Shown piece after piece: positions 35,351 through 61,658 of a DNA stretch of 64,000 bases. The stretch's first letter is position 1. The number at the start of each line of letters is the position of its first letter. A program made the translations under genes and the position numbers. The notes under the pieces are model-generated. The model saw nothing but the letters and a program-made list of their open reading frames with translations, was not told where the DNA came from and searched no databases. The DNA comes from an uncultured Gammaproteobacteria bacterium (lineage in GTDB: Bacteria; Pseudomonadota; Gammaproteobacteria; Pseudomonadales; Pseudohongiellaceae): contig CAJXSF010000009.1 of assembly GCA_913061515.1 (NCBI GenBank), positions 1-64,000 of the forward strand, read 5' to 3'.

Positions 35351-35505
35351 GTGGTGGGCAGAATGGTGGGCAGTCCCCTCATTTTGGCTCAATAAGCGTT
35401 TTGCGGTGAGCAAATTGGTGGGCAGTAAGTTACCCAATTTTCGCATTTAACTCGCCACCACAACAGGTTAGCTGCTGATTCAATAAGCAAATCGGTGGTG
35501 GGCAG
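35351..35505 (+). repeat. GGTGGGCA direct repeats, left island end
   Basis: GGTGGGCAG occurs at 35353-35361, 35365-35373, 35417-35425 and 35497-35505; a variant GGTGAGCA at 35405-35412 also precedes the third copy by 12 bases. The 12-base start-to-start spacing of the pairs, about one helical turn, is typical of protein-binding arms. They lie between yicC and the integrase start and recur at the right island end. Confidence 0.75.
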
Positions 35506-35548
35506 CCATTATTGCCCCCTCCATTATTTCAGCAACTATGGAGTAAAC

Positions 35549-36826
35549 ATGGGAAAACTCACAACAAAACAGGTTATTGCATACAGCAAAGCCGACCCAA
35601 AAAAATATTCAGATGGTGAAGGTCTATACTTTTGCGTCCGCAAACAAGGCTCGCCTTACTGGATGATCCGCTACACCACAGCCAAAGGAAGACGAGAAGC
35701 AACCTTGGGGCAATTTCCTTTAATGTCGTTGGCAGACGCTCGAATTGCCGCCGTATACTTTCGAAAGGAAGTACGTGACGGCATAGATCCTCTTCTAGAA
35801 AAACAGAAAATCGAGTTACCTGACATTGAAACCGTGGATCAACTGTTCCATGACTGGTATCGAACCGATCTTAGTCGACGACTTAAGCATCCCAAGATTC
35901 CGTATCGGGTTTACACCAAAGACATAAGCCCAGTCATTGGCATTAAGTGTATTGCTGAGGTGACCGCACGTGACGTGCGGGAGGTGCTAGAGCGCATTCG
36001 AGAAAGTAACCGCCCTACCATTGCCAACGATACCTTGATGTACATGAAGCAGCTATTTCGGCATGCGATAAAGCTCGACTTAACGCTGAACAACCCAGCC
36101 GCAGCATTTACCGTAGACGATGCCGGTGGCGTGGAGTCCAGTAAAGACAGGATGCTTAGCAAAGAGGAAATTCACTACGCCTTTAGCGTGTTTCATACCC
36201 ATATCAATAGCTTTGGCCGCGACAACTACCTCGCTTGCTGCCTGTTTTTGGTATTGGGTGTACGCAAAAGCGAACTGTGCGAAGCCATGTGGCGTGAAAT
36301 GGATTTAACCACAGGCGTGTGGGATCTGCCCAAAGAACGCAGCAAAACCGGCGTGCCAATCAGCATTCCCTTACCACGCCAAGCCATTGCTTGGTTTAAC
36401 GAGTTGCAAATCCGCGCTTGTGGCTCGCCTTATGTTTTCCCAGCCAGACGAGCAAGCCATCGTCCACATATGGGGCCAGATACGCTAAACCGTGCCATTT
36501 CTAAGCTCTTTGGTCGCGAGCCTGGGCGCAAAAAACAGCCTCCCAATAAAATGGGCAAACTTGAACACTTCACCGTACACGATTTGCGCCGCACCTTTCG
36601 CAGCCTTGCCGCCTCTTTGGGTATTGCAGGCAACGTAGCCGAACGCTGTCTTAACCATAAGCTAAAAGGCGTTGAGGGTATTTACGACCGCCACGATTAC
36701 TTTGAAGAGCGCCGAATTGCCCATCAAACCGTAGCTGATGTGGTTGAACCACTGGTGAACTTTGAGCCCGCTTCACAACACCACACAGGAGGGCGCTATA
36801 GCCAAACTACTGGGAGTTGCAGCTAG
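35549..36826 (+). CDS. P4-type tyrosine integrase
   Basis: The 425-residue site-specific recombinase would insert and excise the island. I start at ATG 35549 (MGKLTTKQVIAYSKADPKKYSDGEGLYF in the family place), with GGAG upstream, rather than at 35495. The N-terminal DUF4102 arm-binding domain (about 1-90) has LYFCVRKQGSPYWMIRYTTAKG. The catalytic domain shows the first Arg in LGVRKSELCEAMW, HDLRR, the second His in NHKLKGVEGIY and the nucleophile Tyr just after it (YDRHDY region). It reads away from yicC. Confidence 0.93.
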   Translation: MGKLTTKQVIAYSKADPKKYSDGEGLYFCVRKQGSPYWMIRYTTAKGRREATLGQFPLMSLADARIAAVYFRKEVRDGIDPLLEKQKIELPDIETVDQLFHDWYRTDLSRRLKHPKIPYRVYTKDISPVIGIKCIAEVTARDVREVLERIRESNRPTIANDTLMYMKQLFRHAIKLDLTLNNPAAAFTVDDAGGVESSKDRMLSKEEIHYAFSVFHTHINSFGRDNYLACCLFLVLGVRKSELCEAMWREMDLTTGVWDLPKERSKTGVPISIPLPRQAIAWFNELQIRACGSPYVFPARRASHRPHMGPDTLNRAISKLFGREPGRKKQPPNKMGKLEHFTVHDLRRTFRSLAASLGIAGNVAERCLNHKLKGVEGIYDRHDYFEERRIAHQTVADVVEPLVNFEPASQHHTGGRYSQTTGSCS

Positions 36827-39531: not shown

Positions 39532-40545
39532 TTATCGATCTTTCAAACGTTTGAGTACAGCTAATGTTTCTGGATCACTCAATTGCTCTTCCAAAGAACG
39601 GCTCTTCTCACCCAAGAAGCGATCAAAATCAGCTTCGGGTACCGATTGAATATAAGCTTCCAGCTTTTCATGCAAGGCATCACGGAAGCACAAATCGCGA
39701 CTGGCCATTTTAGTTCTGGCATCCAAAATCAGAGGTTTGAATAGAGGATGGCTTTCAAAACTCGCAAACAACCCCTCCGCCTCGTTCTGCGAAAGCTTGC
39801 GGCCTAATTTATTGCTGGCGTGCTCTAGTTCATGAGCAATACCTGATTCGTAGCTGGCAATCAGATTAAGTACTTCTGAATATAGGGTCTCGCGGATATT
39901 GGTTTTCGTTGCTAGGTTTAAAACCTTTTTATATTCAGCCGCGTTTTCATGAAAAATGCTTTGATATATAAGGTTAGTAAAGCGTGCATACGTCCATTTA
40001 TTGACTTCTACATACTTATCCAATGCATCGGTGAACTGACGACGGTAGTTTTCTTCTTGCAGAGCAGAGACAAGGTAATTTTCATCACGCTGATTAATAA
40101 ACTTAGTATGACCACCCACACGCTCAGCCATTACATCCAGTACAATATCGAGCAGACGCGAACGCATAAGGCGTGCCGACTCACTTTCAGTTAGCAACAT
40201 CCCTATGTTGAGCACTGCACGAAAACTGAACAAACCAAGCGCGGTGGTTTTGGTACCGTCATTGATGTCGGTACCAGACATTAATTCCTTGAATTCCTTT
40301 AGTTTTTTACCTTTTAGCACCTGGTAGCCGTTGCTTTTTAACTCACCGGCATGGCTAGATAAATAGCGCTCAATAGTACGGTCTGTAACGTCATACAAGG
40401 CAACTACCTGTGCCTTGATGAATACTGTCTCGCCTTCAAAGATCACTCCTCCCAAGCCCAAGTGCTGCTCGGCTTGTTGCAGGGCGTAGCGGTTGTTAAG
40501 GATATTTTGACGGTCATGTGATGATGCGGTTAGGTCTTTAGGCAT
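39532..40545 (-). CDS. putative DNA-binding protein, RhuM-like restriction accessory
   Basis: The 337-residue product has an N-terminal helix-turn-helix-like segment (ALYDVTDRTIERYLSSHAGEL), then KGKKLKEFKELMSGTDINDGTKTTALGLFSFRAVLNIGMLL, and a long helical C-terminus. Similar proteins sit beside Doc/Fic toxins in type I restriction loci, where they are usually listed only as DNA-binding proteins. It overlaps the upstream ATPase gene by 8 bp. A role as Doc antitoxin is inference from position. Confidence 0.6.
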   Translation of the reverse strand: MPKDLTASSHDRQNILNNRYALQQAEQHLGLGGVIFEGETVFIKAQVVALYDVTDRTIERYLSSHAGELKSNGYQVLKGKKLKEFKELMSGTDINDGTKTTALGLFSFRAVLNIGMLLTESESARLMRSRLLDIVLDVMAERVGGHTKFINQRDENYLVSALQEENYRRQFTDALDKYVEVNKWTYARFTNLIYQSIFHENAAEYKKVLNLATKTNIRETLYSEVLNLIASYESGIAHELEHASNKLGRKLSQNEAEGLFASFESHPLFKPLILDARTKMASRDLCFRDALHEKLEAYIQSVPEADFDRFLGEKSRSLEEQLSDPETLAVLKRLKDR

Positions 40546-42673
40546 TCAAATTAACCTCGCTAAATTCTTCTAGAATTTTGTCACATTCATCCACAACGTA
40601 CTCGGGAATAAGATCAAAGCGCGTAGGATCAAGCTGAAATATAAACTCATTTTCAATATGGTAAGTTTCGTTGATGAATTTTCTAATTACTGAATTATTA
40701 ACCATATCGATATCTAACAAGATTCTGATCAGTTGCAATTTCTCATAGCCATTATTACTTTGCAGGTACAGCTCATTTATTTTTTCGTTATTACTGAACA
40801 GAGCAACTAAGGAAGGATAATCAACTGGAAGCTCAGAAATAAAGCGTTTTATATTATTAATACCATCACTTAGATCAATGGCTGATAACGGCGCATTTAG
40901 CCCCTCTGCATTTCTAGGAATGCGAAAATCTTCTGGATTAGTTCGTTTTTTAAACAAATTTGATAGAATTTGGTATCCACTCTCAAGGTCGCCTAAAACT
41001 TCATATCTTCGGCGTAGATATATCAGCTTGATAATTGGGTCTTGCGTAGATGAAAATAAATTTTCACAGATCTGGATAAAGGTTTTAATATCATCACTAG
41101 AAATGGATTGCTCGGTAATTTCTCCGCTTCGCAAGCGTAAATACGACGCAAAAACTTGGTTACTAAACTGCCCACGTACCGACCTCAGAGTATCAATGAT
41201 AGGTTCAACATCATGGGTAAGCATCAAGACTGTCTTGCTTTTTAAACAATCGCTAGCATCTCGGCGAAACAACATCTCTAAAATTGCATATTTTTTATTT
41301 TTATCAAAAGACGATATCGGGTCGTCAAGTATCACTAAATCAGGCTTTTTAGCTAGGCATTCATACATGAAAAGCACTATTGAGAAGGCATTGCGTTCAC
41401 CAAAACTTAAATGCTGACTTCCACCGCTAAGATGAGTTGAATTATCGATATGTCGTAATTTTAACTGCGCCTGTTCACCTTCACCAACAATTGCAACTTG
41501 ATAGCGATACCCTGCAAAAGTAAGAAAAGCATTAATATCCGTTTGATGCTTTTTAATAAGTCGTTGTATCTCTGTTCGCTGTTGATTAATTTTGCCTTGT
41601 AACGGGCCAGCCTGTTTTATCAGATCATCAATTGACTGGTTAATAACGGCTATTGTTTCATTGGTTTTTATCGAATTTAAGGTATCAAAAAACTGAAGAT
41701 CTATTTTGTAGCCTAATAATTTTTGTCCAACATTTTCCCCTTCATTGAAATCAAACCCAGTTAAACCTTTCAATTTTTCTAGCTTTGCCATCAAATCATC
41801 AATCTGTGATTTCACCGTTACTATGAAAGTTTCGTGTTCTTTTTCGAGGCCATTTTTTAGCGATTTAATGACATTTAATTTTTCTCTTGCTGAATCTGAA
41901 AAATATTCGCCCAGTTTGTTGATAACATCAATTACACTCACAAGATTTTTAATTAAATTTTTATCGTATTCTTTACTTACATTTGCTATTTGCTCTTTCT
42001 TACTTGTCGAATCACTTGTACAAAATGGACAAGAATCTGATAAATCAGAAAATTCCTTGTGCCCTTTCGCTTGCCAATCAATCCAGTTTACACAATTCGA
42101 ACTTTGAATAAAGGGTTGATAAGGCTGTAACCCTTCAGGAATATGTTCAATTTTATTTGAACTAGAGAGCGCCTTCGCACCGGTCGATGTTTTGGCCAAA
42201 CCACCACTAGCTGTAACTTTAAATGCCCGTGACAGTTCATTTAAATTTGATATAAGCGCTTCCAGTTCTGAGTTGTTCGCAAATTGTTGCTTAACTAAAC
42301 TGGTGAATGTTTCTATATCTCGCTCTTTTTCTTGATAAGCATCTGTACGTATAAAAATATTAAAACTATTGCTAACTAGCTCTTCAGGCTTAAAAGTAAA
42401 CTTATTCACGTACTCTTCGTTAAAACAGAGAACACTTTTGATATTTTCAATACCAAGCACATCGGGTTGGATATCATCTACATTTTCGCTGCGAAACTTA
42501 AAGGGTAAAAGATCAGCAAGCGCTTTTTCGTCATCTGTTACAGCATATTGGATGGCTTTAGAAATTGTGCTTTTACCGGTTCCATTCGGGGCAAACTTAA
42601 TATTCAACTTACTCGGCACGATAGCCACTTTGGACACCGTGATGTTGTTACAGTTTTTAATTTCAATGTCCAT
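40538..42673 (-). CDS. AAA_13 family ATPase, RloC/PrrC-like
   Basis: This 711-residue ABC/SMC-type ATPase has Walker A in APNGTGKSTIS near residue 30, a long coiled-coil insert (about 110-400) interrupted by CPFC at 215-218, the signature block SFGERNAFSIVLF and Walker B LVILDDPISSFD with the D-loop. A C-rich hook between coiled coils and this N-terminal P-loop match RloC and PrrC, the tRNA anticodon nucleases linked to type I restriction. The C-terminal half (about 500-711, HIENEFIFQLDP, IPEYVVDECDKILEEF) may hold the nuclease triad, which I cannot place with certainty. It lies 15 bp after hsdS. Confidence 0.78.
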   Translation of the reverse strand: MDIEIKNCNNITVSKVAIVPSKLNIKFAPNGTGKSTISKAIQYAVTDDEKALADLLPFKFRSENVDDIQPDVLGIENIKSVLCFNEEYVNKFTFKPEELVSNSFNIFIRTDAYQEKERDIETFTSLVKQQFANNSELEALISNLNELSRAFKVTASGGLAKTSTGAKALSSSNKIEHIPEGLQPYQPFIQSSNCVNWIDWQAKGHKEFSDLSDSCPFCTSDSTSKKEQIANVSKEYDKNLIKNLVSVIDVINKLGEYFSDSAREKLNVIKSLKNGLEKEHETFIVTVKSQIDDLMAKLEKLKGLTGFDFNEGENVGQKLLGYKIDLQFFDTLNSIKTNETIAVINQSIDDLIKQAGPLQGKINQQRTEIQRLIKKHQTDINAFLTFAGYRYQVAIVGEGEQAQLKLRHIDNSTHLSGGSQHLSFGERNAFSIVLFMYECLAKKPDLVILDDPISSFDKNKKYAILEMLFRRDASDCLKSKTVLMLTHDVEPIIDTLRSVRGQFSNQVFASYLRLRSGEITEQSISSDDIKTFIQICENLFSSTQDPIIKLIYLRRRYEVLGDLESGYQILSNLFKKRTNPEDFRIPRNAEGLNAPLSAIDLSDGINNIKRFISELPVDYPSLVALFSNNEKINELYLQSNNGYEKLQLIRILLDIDMVNNSVIRKFINETYHIENEFIFQLDPTRFDLIPEYVVDECDKILEEFSEVNLNA

Positions 42674-51207: not shown

Positions 51208-51600
51208 CGTTTGCTTCCTCACTGATCTGTTAAGTTCAGTTAGGAGTTTGCCAGTACTAAACGGACGCAGTAGGCAGATAAATGCCCGGATCGTGCAGCT
51301 TTCTGAGGGTACAGGTAGCTACTTGCCCCAGTTTGTAGATAGTGCCCAAAACAATAAATGCTCTGTGGGCAGGGTTAGTGTGTGCCTAAGTGGCGTGAAC
51401 TAAAGCTTTGCCCAGACCGCCCCAAAAGCCCAAGGGATGAGTGCCAAAAGCTTTCTCAAAAAGGGAAAGTCTTGCTCAATTAGAACGCCACAACACTTTT
51501 ACGCGCATAAAAATGTAAAATTCCGCACTTTTCTGCGCGTAAAAGTGTAGACTGAGTTATACTACAGGCAGTTAACAGTCTTAATTGGCGGGAAATGACA
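51208..51600. promoter_or_regulatory. divergent promoter region, alpA / AAA-ATPase, with 15-bp palindrome
   Basis: This 393-bp stretch separates two divergent genes. Near the right end lies a perfect inverted repeat, ACACTTTTACGCGCA (51493-51507) and TGCGCGTAAAAGTGT (51534-51548), with a 26-base spacer that holds a further degenerate copy (GCGCATAAAAATGTA, 51503-51517). The repeats sit 53 bases upstream of the ATPase ATG and look like operator sites. Nothing coding is seen. Confidence 0.6.
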
Positions 51601-52914
51601 ATGCAGCGCAACTTACTCAACGCCCTAATAGCATGGAAAAGTCAACCTGTGCGCAAGCCATTATTGATCGATGGCGCAAGACAAACAGGTAAAACCTATC
51701 TACTGCAAGAGTTGTTTGGGAATACCTTTGCCAACATCCTTCGTATCGACTTCCTTGAAAACCCAGCTTACAAAGAAGCGTTCGATGGCTCGTTGTCACC
51801 TGACGAGCTAGTAATGAACATTGAGTTGTTAACCAACCAAGCGTTCAATCCAGACACCGACTTGCTGATATTAGATGAAATTGGCGAATGTGAACGAGCC
51901 GTAACTTCGCTGAAGTATTTTGCCGAAAAAGCGCCGTCCTATTTTGTCGCAGCCAGCGGTTCAAATATTGGTTTGCTCAACACCTTCCCTGTGGGCAAGG
52001 TAGAACAATACAATTTACGACCACTGACCTTCCAAGAATTTATTTACGCATCCAACGAGCAAGCACTGATCAAAGCATTTGATAGTCAAGCAAGCACACC
52101 GGCGGTGCACACTAAATTGATGGATAAACTAACCGACTATTTTTTTACCGGTGGTATGCCGGAAGCCGTTTCTGCTTGGTATCAGTTTAAGGATTCAAGC
52201 ATTCTAGAGCGTGTTGAAAAAGTCACAAAAATTCATGCCGATTTAGTTGAAGGTTATCGCCGCGATTTCGGTAAGTACGCGGGCAAGGTCGATGCCACAC
52301 TGATTGAATCGGTGTTTAATAGCATTCCAGCCCAGCTATCACTTGTCAGCGATGAGTCGGTTAAACGCTTTAAATTTAAGCATGTGCATGAGCGAAAATC
52401 TCGTTATAGCGATTTTGAAACCGCGATCCATTGGCTTAACTGTTGCCGCTTAGCTTTACCAAACTACCCTATTGAAGGATTGCCGAAATCTCCGTTGGCG
52501 GCGTATAAAAAAGACAATATGGTTAAACTATTTCTGTTTGATGTGGGCCTTCTCAATCATATGCTGGGCAGCAGTTATAAAGAGATTAAGCAACAAAACT
52601 ATGAATACAAAGGCTATGTGGCTGAAAACTTTGTGCAACAAGAGCTCACAGCTATTGGCGTTGACCCAAGCTATTCATGGAATGACGCCCGCGCCGAAAT
52701 CGAATTTATTTTGGCGACCGATGAAGGCGATATCATCCCTGTTGAAGTCAAAAGTGGTAAACGTACAAGAGCAAAATCGTTGGCATCCTACGTTGAAAAA
52801 TGTACTCCAAGTAAAACCTTTAAGTTAACGGGTACACAAGGCTCTTCAGCGTTAGAACAAACCAATATCGTGATGCCTTTGTATTTCACGCAGTATTTAC
52901 CTCAGAGATGGTAA
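51601..52914 (+). CDS. AAA_14/DUF4143 ATP-binding protein
   Basis: The 437-residue product (MQRNLLNALIAW) has an AAA P-loop LIDGARQTGKTYLLQ, Walker B LLILDEIGECERA and sensor ASGSNIGLLN, followed by a C-terminal DUF4143 domain with the PD-(D/E)xK-like EIEFILATDEGDIIPVEVKSGK. ATG 51601 is preferred because GGGA (51590-51593) sits at a normal distance; an ATG at 51595 is too close. This family is common on accessory DNA but lacks a firm function. It is a lone gene with palindromic sites in its promoter. Confidence 0.86.
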   Translation: MQRNLLNALIAWKSQPVRKPLLIDGARQTGKTYLLQELFGNTFANILRIDFLENPAYKEAFDGSLSPDELVMNIELLTNQAFNPDTDLLILDEIGECERAVTSLKYFAEKAPSYFVAASGSNIGLLNTFPVGKVEQYNLRPLTFQEFIYASNEQALIKAFDSQASTPAVHTKLMDKLTDYFFTGGMPEAVSAWYQFKDSSILERVEKVTKIHADLVEGYRRDFGKYAGKVDATLIESVFNSIPAQLSLVSDESVKRFKFKHVHERKSRYSDFETAIHWLNCCRLALPNYPIEGLPKSPLAAYKKDNMVKLFLFDVGLLNHMLGSSYKEIKQQNYEYKGYVAENFVQQELTAIGVDPSYSWNDARAEIEFILATDEGDIIPVEVKSGKRTRAKSLASYVEKCTPSKTFKLTGTQGSSALEQTNIVMPLYFTQYLPQRW

Positions 52915-53753: not shown

Positions 53754-53873
53754 ATGACAATAAACCACATATTTCGCGCTGAGAATATTCTAGAGTCACT
53801 TATAAAAAAGGAACTCTGCTTATTCCGAAAGCTAGATCACTCGAACTCGAGAGGGAAAAATGGTAGATACTAA
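53754..53873 (+). CDS. possible 39-residue leader ORF before the GHKL gene
   Basis: An ATG at 53754 with AGGA five bases upstream opens a 39-codon frame (MTINHIFRAENILESLIKKE) that ends at 53873, overlapping the first 14 bases of the GHKL gene in another frame. It could be a leader that couples translation to the kinase-like gene, or simply a chance frame. No family is recognised. Confidence 0.35.
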   Translation: MTINHIFRAENILESLIKKELCLFRKLDHSNSRGKNGRY

Positions 53874-56007
53874 GCCACTGATTAGACCGTTTAGAGCAAA
53901 TGCCCACTTGCTTAAGCTTTTAGGTGATGAATTAATTGGCGACGATCGTTTGGCTGTATTTGAGCTCGTGAAAAATGCTTACGATGCCAACGCAACTAAA
54001 GTAGATGTTACGCTGAATTTAGATTGTGATAACCCTCATATTGTAATTTGGGATCACAATGGTTTCGGTATGACAAAAGATGACATCCTAGACAAGTGGA
54101 TGGAAATCGGCACAAACAGTAAACGCAGCAAAAACAAAGTCAGGACACCCGCCCCACTAAGCCGCCTACCTTTAGGAGAGAAAGGCGTTGGTCGTCTAGC
54201 TGTGCACAAGCTAGGCAATCAATTAATAATCAATACAAGAAGTAAAAATTCTGCAGAATATCAGATCAAGATTGATTGGCCGAAGTTAATTGGTGAAGCT
54301 CAGTACATTGAAGATACGCGAGTGACAATTACACCTCTGGATACACCTAAATACTTCGGGTCAGAGACAGGGACAAGAATTGAAATTGGTGATTTGAATA
54401 ATACTCATTGGGTTCGTGGCGATTTAAGACGCCTAAAACGGCTGTTAACCAGCCTTGTCTCACCATTCAAGACTGTATCGGACTTCGATGTAAATTTAGC
54501 TGTTCCGGGAAGAGAAAAAGAAGTCGCAGATTTACTTGATGCCAGAGATATTCTAGACAAGGCTCTGTGGACATATCATTTTATTATCGATGAAAATGGT
54601 AGATTTTCGTCTACTTACTCTTTCAATCCACCTAAAACATTTAGAGAATTAGCTTCTTCTTCTATAGAGATTGCTGACGAACAACTAGAGCTTCTAGAGC
54701 CTAGCAGAGAAGAAGCATTGACTCGAGAGAAAAAAATCAGTGAATCACTATTGCTAAAGCCAGAAGACCTAAATGATATCGGCCCTCTATCCGGCACGTT
54801 TTATATATTCATAAAAAGCGGAGCCGTGTTAAGTGCTATTGGCTCGCCTCAACTAGTCAAAGATTACTTGAGGGAGCAATCTGGAGTACGTGTATATAGA
54901 GATGGAATACGTGTCTTTAATTATGGCGAAGGGAAAGATGACTGGCTCGGCTTGAATGCGGGGCGAATCAATATGCCCGGGCAAAAAATTGATACCGGCA
55001 TGGTAATAGGTGGTATTGATTTAAACCTAGAGGAAAGCTCAGGTCTCAAGGAAAAAACAAACCGAGAAGGCTTTGATGAAAATGACACATACAAGCGTTT
55101 TCGTTGGGTCGTGGCTAGTGTTGTAGAAGATTTCCACCTAAAGCACAGAAATGATCGCGAAGCCCTTGACCTCTATCTAAAAGGCGATATCAAGGACGGC
55201 TCACCAGCAACAACTCGCTTCGCCGAAAGCATCAAAGATATCAGGAAAACAATAAAAAAACATAAACTTGAAAAAGAAATGAACAGCAAGGTAACTCAAA
55301 TCGAATCCGATTATCTCCAAATGCGAGAGGTTACATTAAGCTCTGGGATCGCAGGAATTAATTTGGCGGTAATATTCCATGAGGTAGAAAGGGGCGTTGA
55401 TGATCTAAACGAAGCAATTCGTCAATCTGATGACTACAGTACTCTTTTAAAACGTGCAGAACACTTAGCAGAGTTGCTCGAAGGATTTGCTCCACTCCTT
55501 CGTCGCAATGAACAGAAAACATTTAATATTAAAGCACTTACTCAAAAGGTTGTTAGTCTGAATAGACATCGCTTTGAGCATCACAATATTACTCTTTCAT
55601 GTCCAATTAATACTGATGAGTCCGACTCATTTGAAGTAACAGCACCATTCGGCTTACTTCAAGCGACGCTAACGAACCTAATTGACAACTCTATACACTG
55701 GACAAACCTCAAGGCCGAAAAAGAAGGTAAAGATTATAGAGCGGCTATACGTATAGATAGCTTACCGAACTGGTTTAATGAAGGTCCAGCACTTGTAGTT
55801 ATGGATAATGGACCTGGCTTTAGTTTGACTCCAGAAGAAGCTATACAACCCTTTAAAACTTCTAGACCCGGAGGTATGGGAGTTGGGCTTTACTACTCCG
55901 ATAAAGTAATGGAAACAATCGGTGGTAGACTGCAAATATGCAACCCGGAAGATTTAGACCTACCTGAAGCGTATCAGGGGGCAGCCGTAGTAATGATTTT
56001 TAGCTAG
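53860..56007 (+). CDS. GHKL protein with two ATPase modules, histidine-kinase-like
   Basis: This 715-residue cytoplasmic protein has an N-terminal Hsp90/MutL-type GHKL domain (N box FELVKNAYDANATKVDV, G1 IWDHNGFGMT, G2 EKGVGRLAVHKLG), a middle region to about 450, then a DHp-like helix with GINLAVIFHEVERGVDDL (His at 507) and a C-terminal kinase-type HATPase (LTNLIDNSIHWT, MDNGPGF, SRPGGMGVGLYYS). Two GHKL modules in one chain are unusual. It starts with GAGGG upstream and is followed by the receiver gene after 8 bp. MutL/MORC-like GHKL proteins are known partners of restriction-modification enzymes; a role in defence here is inference. Confidence 0.82.
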   Translation: MVDTKPLIRPFRANAHLLKLLGDELIGDDRLAVFELVKNAYDANATKVDVTLNLDCDNPHIVIWDHNGFGMTKDDILDKWMEIGTNSKRSKNKVRTPAPLSRLPLGEKGVGRLAVHKLGNQLIINTRSKNSAEYQIKIDWPKLIGEAQYIEDTRVTITPLDTPKYFGSETGTRIEIGDLNNTHWVRGDLRRLKRLLTSLVSPFKTVSDFDVNLAVPGREKEVADLLDARDILDKALWTYHFIIDENGRFSSTYSFNPPKTFRELASSSIEIADEQLELLEPSREEALTREKKISESLLLKPEDLNDIGPLSGTFYIFIKSGAVLSAIGSPQLVKDYLREQSGVRVYRDGIRVFNYGEGKDDWLGLNAGRINMPGQKIDTGMVIGGIDLNLEESSGLKEKTNREGFDENDTYKRFRWVVASVVEDFHLKHRNDREALDLYLKGDIKDGSPATTRFAESIKDIRKTIKKHKLEKEMNSKVTQIESDYLQMREVTLSSGIAGINLAVIFHEVERGVDDLNEAIRQSDDYSTLLKRAEHLAELLEGFAPLLRRNEQKTFNIKALTQKVVSLNRHRFEHHNITLSCPINTDESDSFEVTAPFGLLQATLTNLIDNSIHWTNLKAEKEGKDYRAAIRIDSLPNWFNEGPALVVMDNGPGFSLTPEEAIQPFKTSRPGGMGVGLYYSDKVMETIGGRLQICNPEDLDLPEAYQGAAVVMIFS

Positions 56008-56015
56008 GAGAAATA

Positions 56016-57398
56016 ATGAGTAGCTTGCCAAGCATCGTACTTATCGACGATAACAAAAGTGATTTAGATACGCTCCAGAATAGTTTTGCACGCATCGGGT
56101 ACCCATGCCTTTCAGTACTCTATGAAGGAAATGAGCCCGATAATATGTCAGGTATAGATCACGTCAATCTGGATATGATAAAACCTCGTATTGTCATTTC
56201 TGACCTAAATCTACAAGAGCTTCATAAGCTCAACGCAACACAATTAGCCGGACCTATTGTTCAAATTCTCCAAAAGTTACCTCTAAACGGTCCTTTCATG
56301 TTGTACTTTTGGTCTCGCAATGCAACCACCGTCGAGCCAGTTTTGAAAGTTATTTATGAGCGATACCCTGACATTCCACACCCTATTCACTGGGGAGTGC
56401 TAGACAAGGCCCAATTTAAATCAGACCAACAAAACCTAGCAGAACGATTAGCTTCTAATATGAAGGGAAGTAGGGTGTTCGATGCTTTATGCAGCTGGGA
56501 AGGTCGGGTCTCAACCGCAGCACAAAAAACAACGAATTCATTATATAATTTAGCTAGAGCGCTTGAGCCTACTGATTTGACAGACTTCGAGACTAGAACA
56601 ACGGAAAAACTGCAGTCTATGCTGGCTGTAATAGGCAATGAAACCATAGGTATTCGAAATGCTGCTGCAGAACCAGAGAGCGCAATAGAGCTCGGTTTAA
56701 CTCCAGTTTTACATGATCACATAAGCTCAGTTAAAAATGAGGCAGACTCTGTTGATTGGGAAAATGCGGTTCCATCTATAGGAAGGAATATACAGCTCGA
56801 TAAGGAAGTGGCGACCAAGCTCAATTCCTTCTGTCACATTGAAGAGGTGGGCATTGATTATTCGAAAGGGTCTCGAGGTATATTCCTTGAATTATCATCT
56901 GACGTTCTAAACGACCCTGAGAAGCGAATGAAATTGGAATCTCGATTTGGCAGCAGCCTTAACACTATAATTGACGAAGAGTTCTTAATAAATATTGTAA
57001 AAGAGACCAATAGAGCCGTAGTAAGAGAGGCCACTAAAATAGGATTTATTGAAATTTCTGCTGAGTGTGACCAAGCACAGAAAAAGATAAAATTGCACAG
57101 ATATGTAATTGCTGCTCTTACACCTCTCAAACACACTCCTGAAGGTGAAGCAGAATTCGAACTATATGGAAAGCAAAATAAAAAATCTCACAACGGTATT
57201 TATCGCGTGCCTGATATAAATCTTCATGGCATTGATTACATGTTACAACTCTCTTTTAAATACCAAATTGGCTCACTCCCTAATGAAAGCTCATGGTTAG
57301 GAAATCCTTTACTAAGATTGCGAGATCAGATAATGGTCGATATTTCATTTAACTGTGCACAGTACATTTCACGACCTGGAATAATCGCTTTCAAGTAG
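56016..57398 (+). CDS. receiver-domain protein with unknown C-terminal domain
   Basis: The 460-residue product begins with a receiver-like domain: acidic pair at 11-12 (IVLIDDNKSD), a phospho-acceptor candidate Asp63 (VISDLNLQ) and a Lys131 (VLDKAQF). The remaining 300 residues, mainly helical at about 140-290 and then mixed, match nothing I recognise; there is no DNA-binding HTH of the usual regulators. Its partner is the upstream GHKL protein, 8 bp away, whose His507 could donate phosphate. Its last 30 bp overlap the end of the convergent methyltransferase gene. Confidence 0.75.
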   Translation: MSSLPSIVLIDDNKSDLDTLQNSFARIGYPCLSVLYEGNEPDNMSGIDHVNLDMIKPRIVISDLNLQELHKLNATQLAGPIVQILQKLPLNGPFMLYFWSRNATTVEPVLKVIYERYPDIPHPIHWGVLDKAQFKSDQQNLAERLASNMKGSRVFDALCSWEGRVSTAAQKTTNSLYNLARALEPTDLTDFETRTTEKLQSMLAVIGNETIGIRNAAAEPESAIELGLTPVLHDHISSVKNEADSVDWENAVPSIGRNIQLDKEVATKLNSFCHIEEVGIDYSKGSRGIFLELSSDVLNDPEKRMKLESRFGSSLNTIIDEEFLINIVKETNRAVVREATKIGFIEISAECDQAQKKIKLHRYVIAALTPLKHTPEGEAEFELYGKQNKKSHNGIYRVPDINLHGIDYMLQLSFKYQIGSLPNESSWLGNPLLRLRDQIMVDISFNCAQYISRPGIIAFK

Positions 57399-58913
57399 TT
57401 TGAATACGAGATTTCCGATCTGTTGCGCCAAATACGGTGGGACAGCATTACCTACTTGAACATATTGCTGCGTTCTATTTCCTTCAAACAAATAGTTATC
57501 CGGAAACGTTTGTAAACGAGCAGCTTCTCTAACGGTTAAACTACGACACTGCTTAGGATCATAGTGAATAAAATAGTGACCATCTTTTGAGATGTGGCTA
57601 GTTACTGTAGTTGAGCACTTATTTGCTGCTTGAGTTCTAAAACGATCTGCGTGTGAACCTGATTTCCAGTTTTCATGCGCTGGGGCTAATACGTCCGGGT
57701 AATCGCAAGACTTAGGCGAAGTACCTTCATTTAACTGGGTAAATGCAGCACTGAAAGCGTAACGTAGCAAATCACTTTCCATATGCCCACGAGTTTCATG
57801 ATTTAGCACGCAGGGGGGCTCGTTCGATGCATACCACTCGACTAAATGCTCAGGTATTTGGCTAAGGCTATTTGCAGGTTGAGATGCGGATCGTGCTAGC
57901 TTCTTGAACGGTTCAATATCTAGACTATTAGCTTGATTGAATTGCTTCTTGAGCAAACGCTTAACTGTAATAGCGTTCTTTGACACAATACTTTCCCAGT
58001 CTTTTCCTATGTCTTTGCGTTTTGAAAGTCCGCTTCGTAACTTAGGTAAATCAGCCAAAACTTGTTCAACCGTCGATCTCCGGGAAATTGGGGTAAGTGT
58101 TCCTGGGGTTCTTTCAATATCCGCGCGAACACCTAACAAAATTACTCGATGACGGGCCTGGGGAATTCCATAGTTTTCGGTTTTTAATAAATAGTCGGAA
58201 GGATCATCATAAATCGGCTTTAACGAATCTTTTGCTTCCACCACTAAAGAGTATATTTTGTATCTTGGTGTTGTTATTTTTGTGACGCGCCCTGGCATAC
58301 TCAAATCTTTGAGAATTCTCGGGAATATAATTTTCTCATCTATTTTTGCTGAGAGGATGCCTCGAACATTTTCCATCACAAATACATCCGGTTGAGCGAT
58401 TGATAGCACTCGTAAATATTCTTTGTACAGAAAATGTCGATGGTCTTTTACAGCATTATAATCTTTGATACCGGCGTTGCGAGAACGGCCAGCGAGCGAA
58501 TAAGCTTGGCAAGGGGGACCACCTATAACGACTTTAGGCTTGTTCCCGTGATTTTTTACAAGCTCAACGATTCGCTTATGAATCTTGCTATTGTCAGCAC
58601 CTAGCGCGTGGGGCGTATAGAAAGTCTCTTGCCGAGCTTCTTCGGCGTCTAAAGGGAAACGACTAAACAACTCTTCTCTAGTTACTCTACCAAGTAAATA
58701 GTCGTTGTAACTTTTTAGGCCTGCCTCTGAATCTTTAATTTTTCTATAAAAAGCCCGAGTAGTTAGCGTTTTGTGCGCACATGGTTCTTTTTCTATAGAC
58801 ACTCCTATTTTAAATGGATGATTTCCACTTTTATTAGTGACAGAGGATATACCTTCGCCTAGCCCGCCGGGCCCTGCAAAAAGGTCTATTACAAGAATTT
58901 CACCTGTTTTCAT
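57369..58913 (-). CDS. DNA (cytosine-5)-methyltransferase
   Basis: The 514-residue enzyme methylates C5 of cytosine in DNA. Motif I is DLFAGPGGLGEG, the catalytic Cys is in GGPPCQAYSLAGRSRN (motif IV), ENV is in VMENVRGIL (motif VI), motif VIII reads IPQARHRVILLG and motif X ends QVGNAVPPYLAQQIGN. A long variable region lies between VIII and IX-X. No restriction endonuclease gene adjoins it in the classical way; instead the tail-to-tail GHKL/receiver pair lies opposite. The target site cannot be predicted. Confidence 0.95.
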   Translation of the reverse strand: MKTGEILVIDLFAGPGGLGEGISSVTNKSGNHPFKIGVSIEKEPCAHKTLTTRAFYRKIKDSEAGLKSYNDYLLGRVTREELFSRFPLDAEEARQETFYTPHALGADNSKIHKRIVELVKNHGNKPKVVIGGPPCQAYSLAGRSRNAGIKDYNAVKDHRHFLYKEYLRVLSIAQPDVFVMENVRGILSAKIDEKIIFPRILKDLSMPGRVTKITTPRYKIYSLVVEAKDSLKPIYDDPSDYLLKTENYGIPQARHRVILLGVRADIERTPGTLTPISRRSTVEQVLADLPKLRSGLSKRKDIGKDWESIVSKNAITVKRLLKKQFNQANSLDIEPFKKLARSASQPANSLSQIPEHLVEWYASNEPPCVLNHETRGHMESDLLRYAFSAAFTQLNEGTSPKSCDYPDVLAPAHENWKSGSHADRFRTQAANKCSTTVTSHISKDGHYFIHYDPKQCRSLTVREAARLQTFPDNYLFEGNRTQQYVQVGNAVPPYLAQQIGNLVFKLLESDYSRS

Positions 58914-59177: not shown

Positions 59178-60428
59178 CTACAGCCTAAACGCCTCCTGCT
59201 TAAGCAACAGCTCCGCACGACTAATTCCAAGTTTATTTGCCACGCCCTGCCAGCCTTTCACTGCCGCCAACACCTGGTCATATATTCTCGTAGCCTCTTC
59301 AACGCTTAAGCGAAAAAAGCTTATAACATCAAAGGCCAAACTATAGTCTAGGGCATTAGAGTTATCTGTGATATTCAGGTGTAGCCCGTTCTTGCCTACG
59401 ATAGGATTAAGGTCATAGGCTGGCGATAGCCTCCAGCCTTTTGCTGAAAGCAAAAAGCCATGGTTGCGTAGGTGATCATCGGTATTGGAAATTGCGATGT
59501 TGAAGATGATTCTTCGCCACAGCTGTGCAAGGTCTTCTTTGGTTTGGGCACCTTGGTTAACAAGGAACTCTGCAATCTCTAGATAGCTGGCCCCTTCTGA
59601 CTGTTCTCCGTCATAGTATTGCAATTGCGTCATTGCAGATGAGAAATGAATCCTTCGGCCATTGTCTCGATCAAAGCGTTTAGTCAAAAACGTATGATGC
59701 TGTGACGAGTACTTTTGTACCCTACTTGGGTACATCTCGATACCTGCGGCAATAGCCAGCTCATGACAAACCATCTCCCATGCACCCACATCAAAGCTGT
59801 CGTTTTGATTCGGGAATTTGGCGATCCACAGCTCTTTATCTTCATCGTATACGCAGGCTTTTGGTCTTGCACCGCCTAAGGATGAACCGGGTGATATCAA
59901 CATGCTCAACCAACGGTAGTACTCGCTGCTATCTATGTTTTCATCACTTTCAACCTGCAGTGCCGCGAACTCAAGTTCACGTAGCGAGGTCATAGGCGGG
60001 GCTGCAAACTCAGCATTGTTATCTAGAAACTCTTCACTACCACTGGTTTTGAATCTAATACCACCCATTCGGTATGAGTCATGTACGCCTAATAAATAGT
60101 CTAATTCGTTTAACTGAGCTGTTTGGCGTAAGCCTTTACGATGCTCAATGGCTGCGCGGCGCTGCATCAACACACGCCCCCACCGGTCAGGGGAGGAGTC
60201 TAGAAATGCACGAAAGTTTTTATCAGAAGAGTCGTTGTAAAGCTCACCGCTGTGCAGGGATAGTAGTGGATCTATTTGCACGCGGTAGCTAGAGCTAAGA
60301 AATGCTTTGTCGTAGGCGAAGCTAAAAACGCCGCCCCGTGTTGTGTCGCTAAAAGTAAGCTGCCCTATCAATAAAGGCTTTTCGATAGGCATCCAAGAAG
60401 CATAAACACCTACCACTTGCCGGCTCAC
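59178..60428 (-). CDS. hipA: HipA-family serine/threonine kinase toxin
   Basis: HipA kinases phosphorylate cellular targets such as glutamyl-tRNA synthetase and cause dormancy. The 416 residues include the HipA N-terminal domain, the glycine-rich SPGSSLGGARPKACV, catalytic NTDDHLRNHGF and the metal-binding Asp in SPAYDLNP. Its start overlaps the stop of the small HTH gene by 4 bp (ATGA), as in hipBA operons. The 264 bp after the preceding methyltransferase start show no gene. Confidence 0.92.
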   Translation of the reverse strand: MSRQVVGVYASWMPIEKPLLIGQLTFSDTTRGGVFSFAYDKAFLSSSYRVQIDPLLSLHSGELYNDSSDKNFRAFLDSSPDRWGRVLMQRRAAIEHRKGLRQTAQLNELDYLLGVHDSYRMGGIRFKTSGSEEFLDNNAEFAAPPMTSLRELEFAALQVESDENIDSSEYYRWLSMLISPGSSLGGARPKACVYDEDKELWIAKFPNQNDSFDVGAWEMVCHELAIAAGIEMYPSRVQKYSSQHHTFLTKRFDRDNGRRIHFSSAMTQLQYYDGEQSEGASYLEIAEFLVNQGAQTKEDLAQLWRRIIFNIAISNTDDHLRNHGFLLSAKGWRLSPAYDLNPIVGKNGLHLNITDNSNALDYSLAFDVISFFRLSVEEATRIYDQVLAAVKGWQGVANKLGISRAELLLKQEAFRL

Positions 60429-60730
60429 TTGGCACCTTCTAGCAATTTGATGTTTTGTAGCTTTATCCCTACTTCATCATGGGCGGCTAGCTCTGAGAAA
60501 TTTTCTTCCATCCCAAGCACAGCCATTATTTTTAGATAGGTACCGATCGCCACGCCTGGGTCGCCAGCAAACACCTTGTTCACCGTTTTGTTGTCGAAGC
60601 CTGTCCTCTCACAAATAAGCTTTTTAGTATATCCACGCCTTTTCATCGCCAACAGCAAGTCTTCCCCAAACGTTTTCAGCACTTTCACCTGCTTAGGGTA
60701 CAGCACTTTATGTAAATCTCTTTTTGCCAT
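60425..60730 (-). CDS. hipB: HipB-like HTH antitoxin
   Basis: This 101-residue protein has an XRE-type HTH (LLLAMKRRGYTKKLICERTGFDNKTVNKVFAG) and an acidic tail. It directly precedes hipA and overlaps it, so it is the likely antitoxin and repressor. It would bind the four palindromic sites just upstream (60745-60869), which flank or cover the promoter. Confidence 0.88.
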   Translation of the reverse strand: MAKRDLHKVLYPKQVKVLKTFGEDLLLAMKRRGYTKKLICERTGFDNKTVNKVFAGDPGVAIGTYLKIMAVLGMEENFSELAAHDEVGIKLQNIKLLEGAK

Positions 60731-60905: not shown

Positions 60906-61658
60906 TCAATGGTGCTTTTTGGGCTTATAGGCATTGATAATGCCTTTGCCTTTAATTTTCGTCATCACAAATTCATCACTTAATGAAGCGATCACCTCTG
61001 TGAGCTTCGTTGCACCATAAGAGCGGGGGTCAAAATCTGGCTTGGATCGCTTCAGAAAACTTCCAGCTACTGACACGGTCGCCCACCCATCATCGTCTTG
61101 AAATTGTTCCCATGCTTTTTTAAGTACAGGCACTAATTCTTTCGCTTTAGTGGCCTCGCTCTTCTTGGTTTTGGCTTTAGTCGCATTAGACACATTCGAT
61201 ACTGCGGGGTCAGGTAAACCTAGATTTTCAGTAATGACAAAGTCATCGCAGGCATTTCGAAATGAAATAGGGGTTTTCTGCTCCCCCACACCAAACACGA
61301 AAATTTCTGATTCGCGCAATCTGGACGCCAGCTTCGTAAAGTCACTATCGCTAGATACCAAAGCAAAGGCATCAAATTTACTTGAATACAGTAGGTCCAT
61401 CGCATCGATAATCATCGATGCATCTGTGGAGTTTTTCCCCGTGGTGTAGGCAAACTGTTGAATGGGCTGTATAGCGAGTTCATTGAGGCTTTTCTTCCAG
61501 TTCTTTAAACAATCACTGGACCAGTCTCCATAGGCTCGTTTAATCACGATGTGTCCGTGTGCGGCTATCTCATCTAACACCACTTTAATCTTCTTAAGCT
61601 GCGCGTTGTCTGCATCGATTAAAACAGCAATCTTTTTGTGGTCATCTAAGTCCTTCAT
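60906..61658 (-). CDS. NYN domain RNase-like protein with LOTUS/OST-HTH domain
   Basis: The 250-residue product has an N-terminal NYN (LabA/DUF88) PIN-like nuclease fold: LIDADNAQL, GKNSTDASMIIDAMDLL and LVSSDSDFTKLASRLRE give the acidic metal-binding residues. The C-terminus (about 175-247) has an OST-HTH/LOTUS module (VPVLKKAWEQFQDDDGWATVSVAGSFLKR, FDPRSYGATKLTEVI). Such proteins are probable RNA-processing enzymes. GGGAG precedes the ATG. It is not clearly part of the neighbouring hipBA unit. Confidence 0.9.
   Translation of the reverse strand: MKDLDDHKKIAVLIDADNAQLKKIKVVLDEIAAHGHIVIKRAYGDWSSDCLKNWKKSLNELAIQPIQQFAYTTGKNSTDASMIIDAMDLLYSSKFDAFALVSSDSDFTKLASRLRESEIFVFGVGEQKTPISFRNACDDFVITENLGLPDPAVSNVSNATKAKTKKSEATKAKELVPVLKKAWEQFQDDDGWATVSVAGSFLKRSKPDFDPRSYGATKLTEVIASLSDEFVMTKIKGKGIINAYKPKKHH

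Follow-up and report, generated by a model that had tools for sequence, protein, structure and literature searches.

Three neighbouring genes, encoding a histidine kinase with a MORC-type ATPase module, its receiver protein and a C5-cytosine DNA methyltransferase, are most likely a mobile cassette directed against phages or foreign DNA, whose DNA-clamp kinase would pass a signal to an effector that can be exchanged; we hold this reading with about even confidence. As to its type, restriction-modification (RM)-like or abortive defence is the best reading. The genes lie in a 64,000-nucleotide stretch of a contig from an uncultured gammaproteobacterium of the Pseudohongiellaceae, here called the window, and each member of the cassette named in the initial annotation (a dual GHKL protein, a receiver protein and a cytosine methyltransferase) is present and intact.

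The sensor kinase (715 aa, 53860..56007, + strand) combines in one chain a MORC-type GHKL+S5 ATPase module (residues 18-435, 53911..55164, +) and a DHp-CA histidine kinase module (residues about 490-715, 55327..56004, +). The start previously placed at 53754 had to be abandoned, as it opens a 39-codon ORF that is read in a different frame and lacks conservation in relatives, and the true kinase start is at 53860. Pfam matches were obtained for both GHKL regions (HATPase_c_3, 6e-17, residues 32-144; HATPase_c, 1e-14, residues 600-697). When the AlphaFold model (pLDDT 81) was compared with the PDB, residues 18-435 matched the Morc3 ATPase cassette 5ix2 (Z 20.2 over 296 residues, 3.6 A), so that this half, described earlier as an Hsp90/MutL-type GHKL domain, is structurally MORC-like, and residues about 450-715 matched DHp-CA histidine kinase structures (Z 18-20). 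The resemblance of the sensor half to MORC3, as predicted by the model, is new here. Both GHKL sites are invariant across 77 relatives, and the GHKL plus S5 module of the window kinase has its ATP-binding residues intact: E35, N39, D65, G68, G70, K108 and K399 of the MORC-type module are conserved in 77/77, as is H507, the candidate phospho-acceptor (55378-55380, +), and N606, N610, D649, G651 and G653 of the kinase module are likewise invariant. The kinases of two Rhizobiaceae loci (L002:5571-7976 and L003:5376-7976) are extended at the N-terminus by roughly 90-150 residues, and EcoRII-N-type and other RM genes are found near both.

The receiver protein (460 aa, 56016..57398, +) is assigned to the kinase as its partner by adjacency and coevolution, and had no match in any family library. 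Its AlphaFold model (pLDDT 90) comprises a CheY-type REC domain (residues 1-135, 56016..56420, +; D11/D12, D63, S100 and K131), a stretch of helices (residues about 139-275) and a terminal alpha/beta part. A structure search with the whole receiver model placed the REC domain close to CheY4 (4h60, Z 11.3) and returned REC matches alone. D11, D63 (56202-56204, +) and K131 are invariant in 73/73 relatives; with the kinase histidine, all His, Asp and Lys relay residues of the pair are thus present and invariant, in good agreement with the phospho-relay suggested earlier, and phosphotransfer itself may be presumed from these residues. The output region of about 320 residues is of no recognised family. 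By sequence it had no significant match in Pfam, NCBIfam, PHROGs, PADLOC or the PDB, so that a housekeeping family, which would have spoken against a role in defence, was not recovered there, and neither a nuclease or toxin motif in the output domain nor a DNA-binding domain in the receiver was recognised. Its Cys351 and Asp352 (57066-57071, +) are invariant in all relatives aligned, and residues about 240-460 (56733..57395, +) form an exchangeable output domain, as seen from a drop in DNA identity and from tree conflicts (below).

The methyltransferase gene (514 aa, 57369..58913, - strand; PF00145, 2.8e-44) is convergent with the receiver gene, which it overlaps by 30 bp, and motifs I, IV (PPCQ), VI, VIII and X are intact. 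PADLOC recognised nothing in the trio beyond a generic methyltransferase and weak GHKL similarity. The best PADLOC model for the methyltransferase was DrmMII (4.7e-96), but DISARM was rejected since the scanned neighbours belong to families other than drmA, drmB and drmC. No restriction nuclease was recognised among the scanned genes beside the window trio, and the output domain could be an unrecognised one. Rfam, promoter and terminator scans gave nothing beyond expectation.

The linkage of the trio is far beyond chance, since the receiver gene adjoins the kinase in 72/72 loci and a C5 methyltransferase lies within about 8 kb of it in 68/72, where the loci counted are those in which the kinase has 4 kb or more of sequence on each flank, drawn mainly from the best kinase matches and including the window and a few plasmid and viral loci found with the receiver, in which the receiver is present by construction. 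An alignment-based scan of the genome collection with the kinase alone gave at least 473 relatives, of which the best 80 were used as anchors, so that distant members are under-sampled; these 80 span Pseudomonadota, Bacteroidota, Chlorobiota, Actinomycetota, Spirochaetota and others. A neighbourhood search as proposed in the initial annotation therefore found the three genes widely conserved as neighbours, and not rare and scattered. The methyltransferase is placed upstream or downstream of the kinase, on either strand and in several gene orders, as judged from mechanical ORF calls in the compared loci. Searches with the receiver by tblastn picked up relatives on seven plasmids and on one contig labelled as phage, with kinase and C5 methyltransferase present on 6/6 contigs inspected, and the receiver as query also hit eight viral contigs. 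The cassette is rare but broad, as the receiver occurred in 1/274 sampled genomes of the class, its own genome only. The kinases of a Burkholderia plasmid (L004) and of a member of the Chlorobiaceae (L046) are 81% identical, which suggests wide transfer, and in four loci (L086, L099, L102 and L103) the trio adjoins phage tail protein D-like genes at the ends of tail operons.

In the window, an island and hipBA accompany the trio, as had been pointed out, and the trio is itself part of the island. The island abuts slmA-pyrE-rph-yicC, of which slmA and pyrE are putative names given on the strength of their sequence, and starts with a P4-type tyrosine integrase beside yicC at its left end (35495..36826, +; Pfam Arm-DNA-bind_3 and Phage_integrase). 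Its cargo includes Fic, an AAA_13 ATPase, HsdS, HsdM, HsdR, DUF927, an AlpA-like gene and an AAA_14/DUF4143 protein, and across the trio the GC content is about 41%, down from about 50%. The same yicC site holds the trio in Aliagarivorans (L016), Marinomonas (L017 and L020) and Salinivibrio (L019), among the closest relatives listed. On the 3' side follow the hipBA-like toxin-antitoxin genes (59178..60730, -; HipA_C, 2e-50, and HTH) and then a NYN-LOTUS protein. Members of the HipA cluster were found in only 3 other trio loci, and the hipBA-like pair is a neighbour rather than a part of the trio. Three further genes of the region deserve mention in their own right: the AAA_13 ATPase gene (40538-42673) adjoins hsdS-hsdM-hsdR and possibly encodes a guard of this type I system resembling PrrC; the AAA_14/DUF4143 protein (51595-52914), directly 5' of the non-coding leader of the trio, matches the PADLOC defence candidate PDC-S01 (6e-121); and the NYN-LOTUS protein (60906-61658) matches, along its full length, the phage family phrog_37744 (3.6e-128).

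RM and defence genes also neighbour the trio in relatives, among them AspBHI-, MvaI- and HaeII-type nucleases, HsdS and Mza-like genes. A conserved linked nuclease was sought among the genes adjoining the trio in about 50 loci and rejected, with GIY-YIG, AspBHI-, MvaI/BcnI-, EcoRII-, HNH- and HaeII-type genes each occurring in few loci. Nine loci (L028, L030, L035, L045, L048, L049, L076, L083 and L087) have an AspBHI-type modification-directed nuclease gene (cluster c5) close to the trio; beside a C5 methyltransferase such a nuclease looks self-harming unless it is gated or its sites differ. A gene for a small GIY-YIG-like protein is positioned directly 5' of the kinase in L018 (2759-3334) and in L096/L097 (L096:5247-5822), with a 19-residue remnant in L016 and nothing in the window, and the trios of L027, L029, L080 and L083 adjoin Z1/AIPR genes of a Mza-like defence system.

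The kinase and the receiver coevolve, and the methyltransferase is freely replaced. Across 75 loci, protein distances of the kinase correlated with those of the REC domain (rho 0.77, permutation maximum 0.14) and the output domain (rho 0.79, maximum 0.16), and with those of the methyltransferase at a rho of 0.16 (maximum 0.09); unrelated methyltransferases stand beside kinases at least 80% identical in L069/L072, L004/L046 and L025/L098. Recombination exchanges the output domain, and does so independently of the methyltransferase. In 11 of 53 pairs of loci with similar kinases (distance under 0.25; the pairs are not independent of each other), the divergence of the output domain exceeded that of REC by more than 0.15, and one pair showed the opposite; a difference of this size was never seen between the two kinase halves, and output and methyltransferase were swapped together in one pair only. 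Overall faster evolution of the output domain was dismissed as the cause, the all-pair medians being similar (REC 0.74 vs output 0.77) and the excess stemming from swaps among close relatives. Between the window and L016, a DNA identity of about 75-90% along the kinase gene and REC drops to about 50% in the output domain and recovers to about 80% in the methyltransferase, and the output allele of the window is shared with L017 and L096 instead of L016. In approximately-unbiased tests the output data rejected the kinase grouping in three clades (p 2.5e-10, 0.024 and 0.021, values that are optimistic since the groups were named after inspection), and the kinase data rejected the output grouping in both clades tested.

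The earlier suggestion that methylation marks self for this effector finds no support in these exchanges, as the methyltransferase is swapped without a matching output swap, which argues against an output domain that reads the methyltransferase's own DNA site. The methyltransferase is needed as a kind and not as a particular sequence, and this leaves three options: general sensing of cytosine methylation or DNA state by the MORC module, guarding of the methyltransferase, or regulation of a local RM system. Defence with DNA sensing ranks first among them, with a probability that we would set near one half. It is favoured by the linkage, the mobility, the defence-type neighbours and the exchange of the output domain, which resembles that of arms-race modules, by sites of the kind that defence cargo occupies (the integrase island beside HsdRMS, the yicC site, the ends of phage tail operons and plasmids), and by the module structures and the invariant residues. 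Against it count the little that PADLOC recognises of the trio and an output domain with no recognised nuclease or toxin motif. In the mechanism proposed, the C5 methyltransferase would mark host DNA, and the kinase would sense foreign or unmodified DNA, or interference of a phage with DNA. The MORC-type module, by analogy with MORC and MutL, would close on DNA with ATP and thereby activate the fused histidine kinase, which would autophosphorylate at His507 and pass the phosphate to Asp63 of the receiver. Phosphorylation would then free the output domain with its Cys351-Asp352 pair, which may execute or license the attack. More tentatively, the trio may be an immune phospho-relay with a MORC clamp as the input of its histidine kinase; it would team up with whichever C5 methyltransferase is at hand instead of a fixed one, and its swapped Cys-Asp output domain would be a new effector class. 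On this reading the trio would be a modular form of RM that lacks a restriction enzyme of the classical sort.

Complete RM sets (EcoRII, MvaI_BcnI or HaeII) beside the trio in some loci also count against defence, because the pair could there merely regulate them. A regulatory two-component system controlling the expression or activity of the adjacent cytosine RM system was proposed, with RM enrichment as support, by Bellieny-Rabelo et al. 2021 (PMC8011034), and would suit a kinase-receiver pair that works with unrelated methyltransferases. For the trio we find it rather unlikely: the receiver has no recognised DNA-binding domain, recognisable restriction nucleases flank the trio in a minority of loci, a MORC-type sensor would be unusual for gene control, and the output domain is exchanged among close relatives independently of the methyltransferase. 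It is unlikely, too, that kinase and receiver keep watch over the methyltransferase, or over the methylation of the genome, and release a toxic output upon loss of methylation or inhibition of RM, and we give equally low credence to the consequence, by which the element would be stabilised or the infection aborted. Such guarding or addiction would account for the near-obligate yet promiscuous link to a C5 methyltransferase, for carriage on plasmids, islands and prophages and for an exchangeable output domain, but four complete loci (L023, L058, L083 and L085) had no detected C5 methyltransferase. Housekeeping or repair, for example MutL/Vsr-like processing of 5-methylcytosine deamination, is very improbable: Vsr occurs in 41/72 loci and the ATPase of the kinase shows MutL similarity, but Vsr is absent from the window and from 31/72 loci, the distribution is patchy and mobile, and the output domain is exchanged.

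To our knowledge, it is rare for a MORC ATPase to be joined to two-component signalling. The cassette would offer simple bacterial genetics for what the MORC module senses, with phosphorylation of Asp63 as the readout, and, since methyltransferase and output domain are swapped separately, two distinct selective pressures seem to be at work.

Among known systems, Detocs is a defensive two-component system in which a phospho-relay to a receiver with an effector drives phage defence, and by its description it may serve as a precedent for how the trio works; we know of no MORC module or methyltransferase described for it. Predicted HATPase and REC proteins are named in a figure legend of DefensePredictor 2026, in terms insufficient to fix their identity, and no experimental test of the cassette was found in the open-access literature. 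No named system with exactly these three genes had been known in the initial annotation, but the trio does have a precedent, for a homologous association of kinase, receiver, C5 methyltransferase and Vsr was published in 2021 (PMC8011034). That study described in silico an HK-like/RR-like pair (HEF_HK/Response_reg_2; PF19191/PF19192) with C5 methylases and Vsr, suggested regulation of RM and did not mention phage. The window type resembles it in having a HATPase_c_3 + DHp + HATPase_c kinase beside a REC-type protein, a receiver output of no recognised family and a C5 methyltransferase neighbour (68/72), with Vsr also in relatives. A profile of 77 window-type kinases matches the long-type kinases at E about 1e-52 to 1e-64, and the two are therefore homologous, whereas homology of the receivers is suggestive at most (hhalign probability 5-17%), with a Cys-Asp motif discernible by eye in long-type receivers also. 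Both proteins are smaller in the window type, where the kinase has 715 aa against about 1000 and the receiver 460 aa against about 590. PF19191 and PF19192 match long-type proteins; the PF19191 model matches the long-type kinases of L104 and L106 and had no match to the window kinase at E<=1, and PF19192 had none to the receivers of the window and its relatives. As these models do not detect the window proteins, the window type is a separate, shorter subfamily, overlooked by surveys using PF19191/PF19192 or the PADLOC version searched; the orthologue groups of 2021 may have included short types. MORC/paraMORC ATPases were predicted in RM systems by Iyer, Abhiman and Aravind 2008 (PMC2292703), whose text names no receiver or two-component partner. 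The window type shares with them the GHKL+S5 module, the MORC3 fold match and a cytosine methylase and Vsr neighbourhood, and differs in carrying a kinase where theirs have nuclease, TIR or unknown C-terminal extensions. A similar relation holds to restriction enzymes of the BbrUII/HgiDII family (NF050001): the N-terminal GHKL region is alike (7e-23 over residues 32-224), but the match is far under the family cut-off and the window protein has a kinase C-terminus in place of the nuclease.
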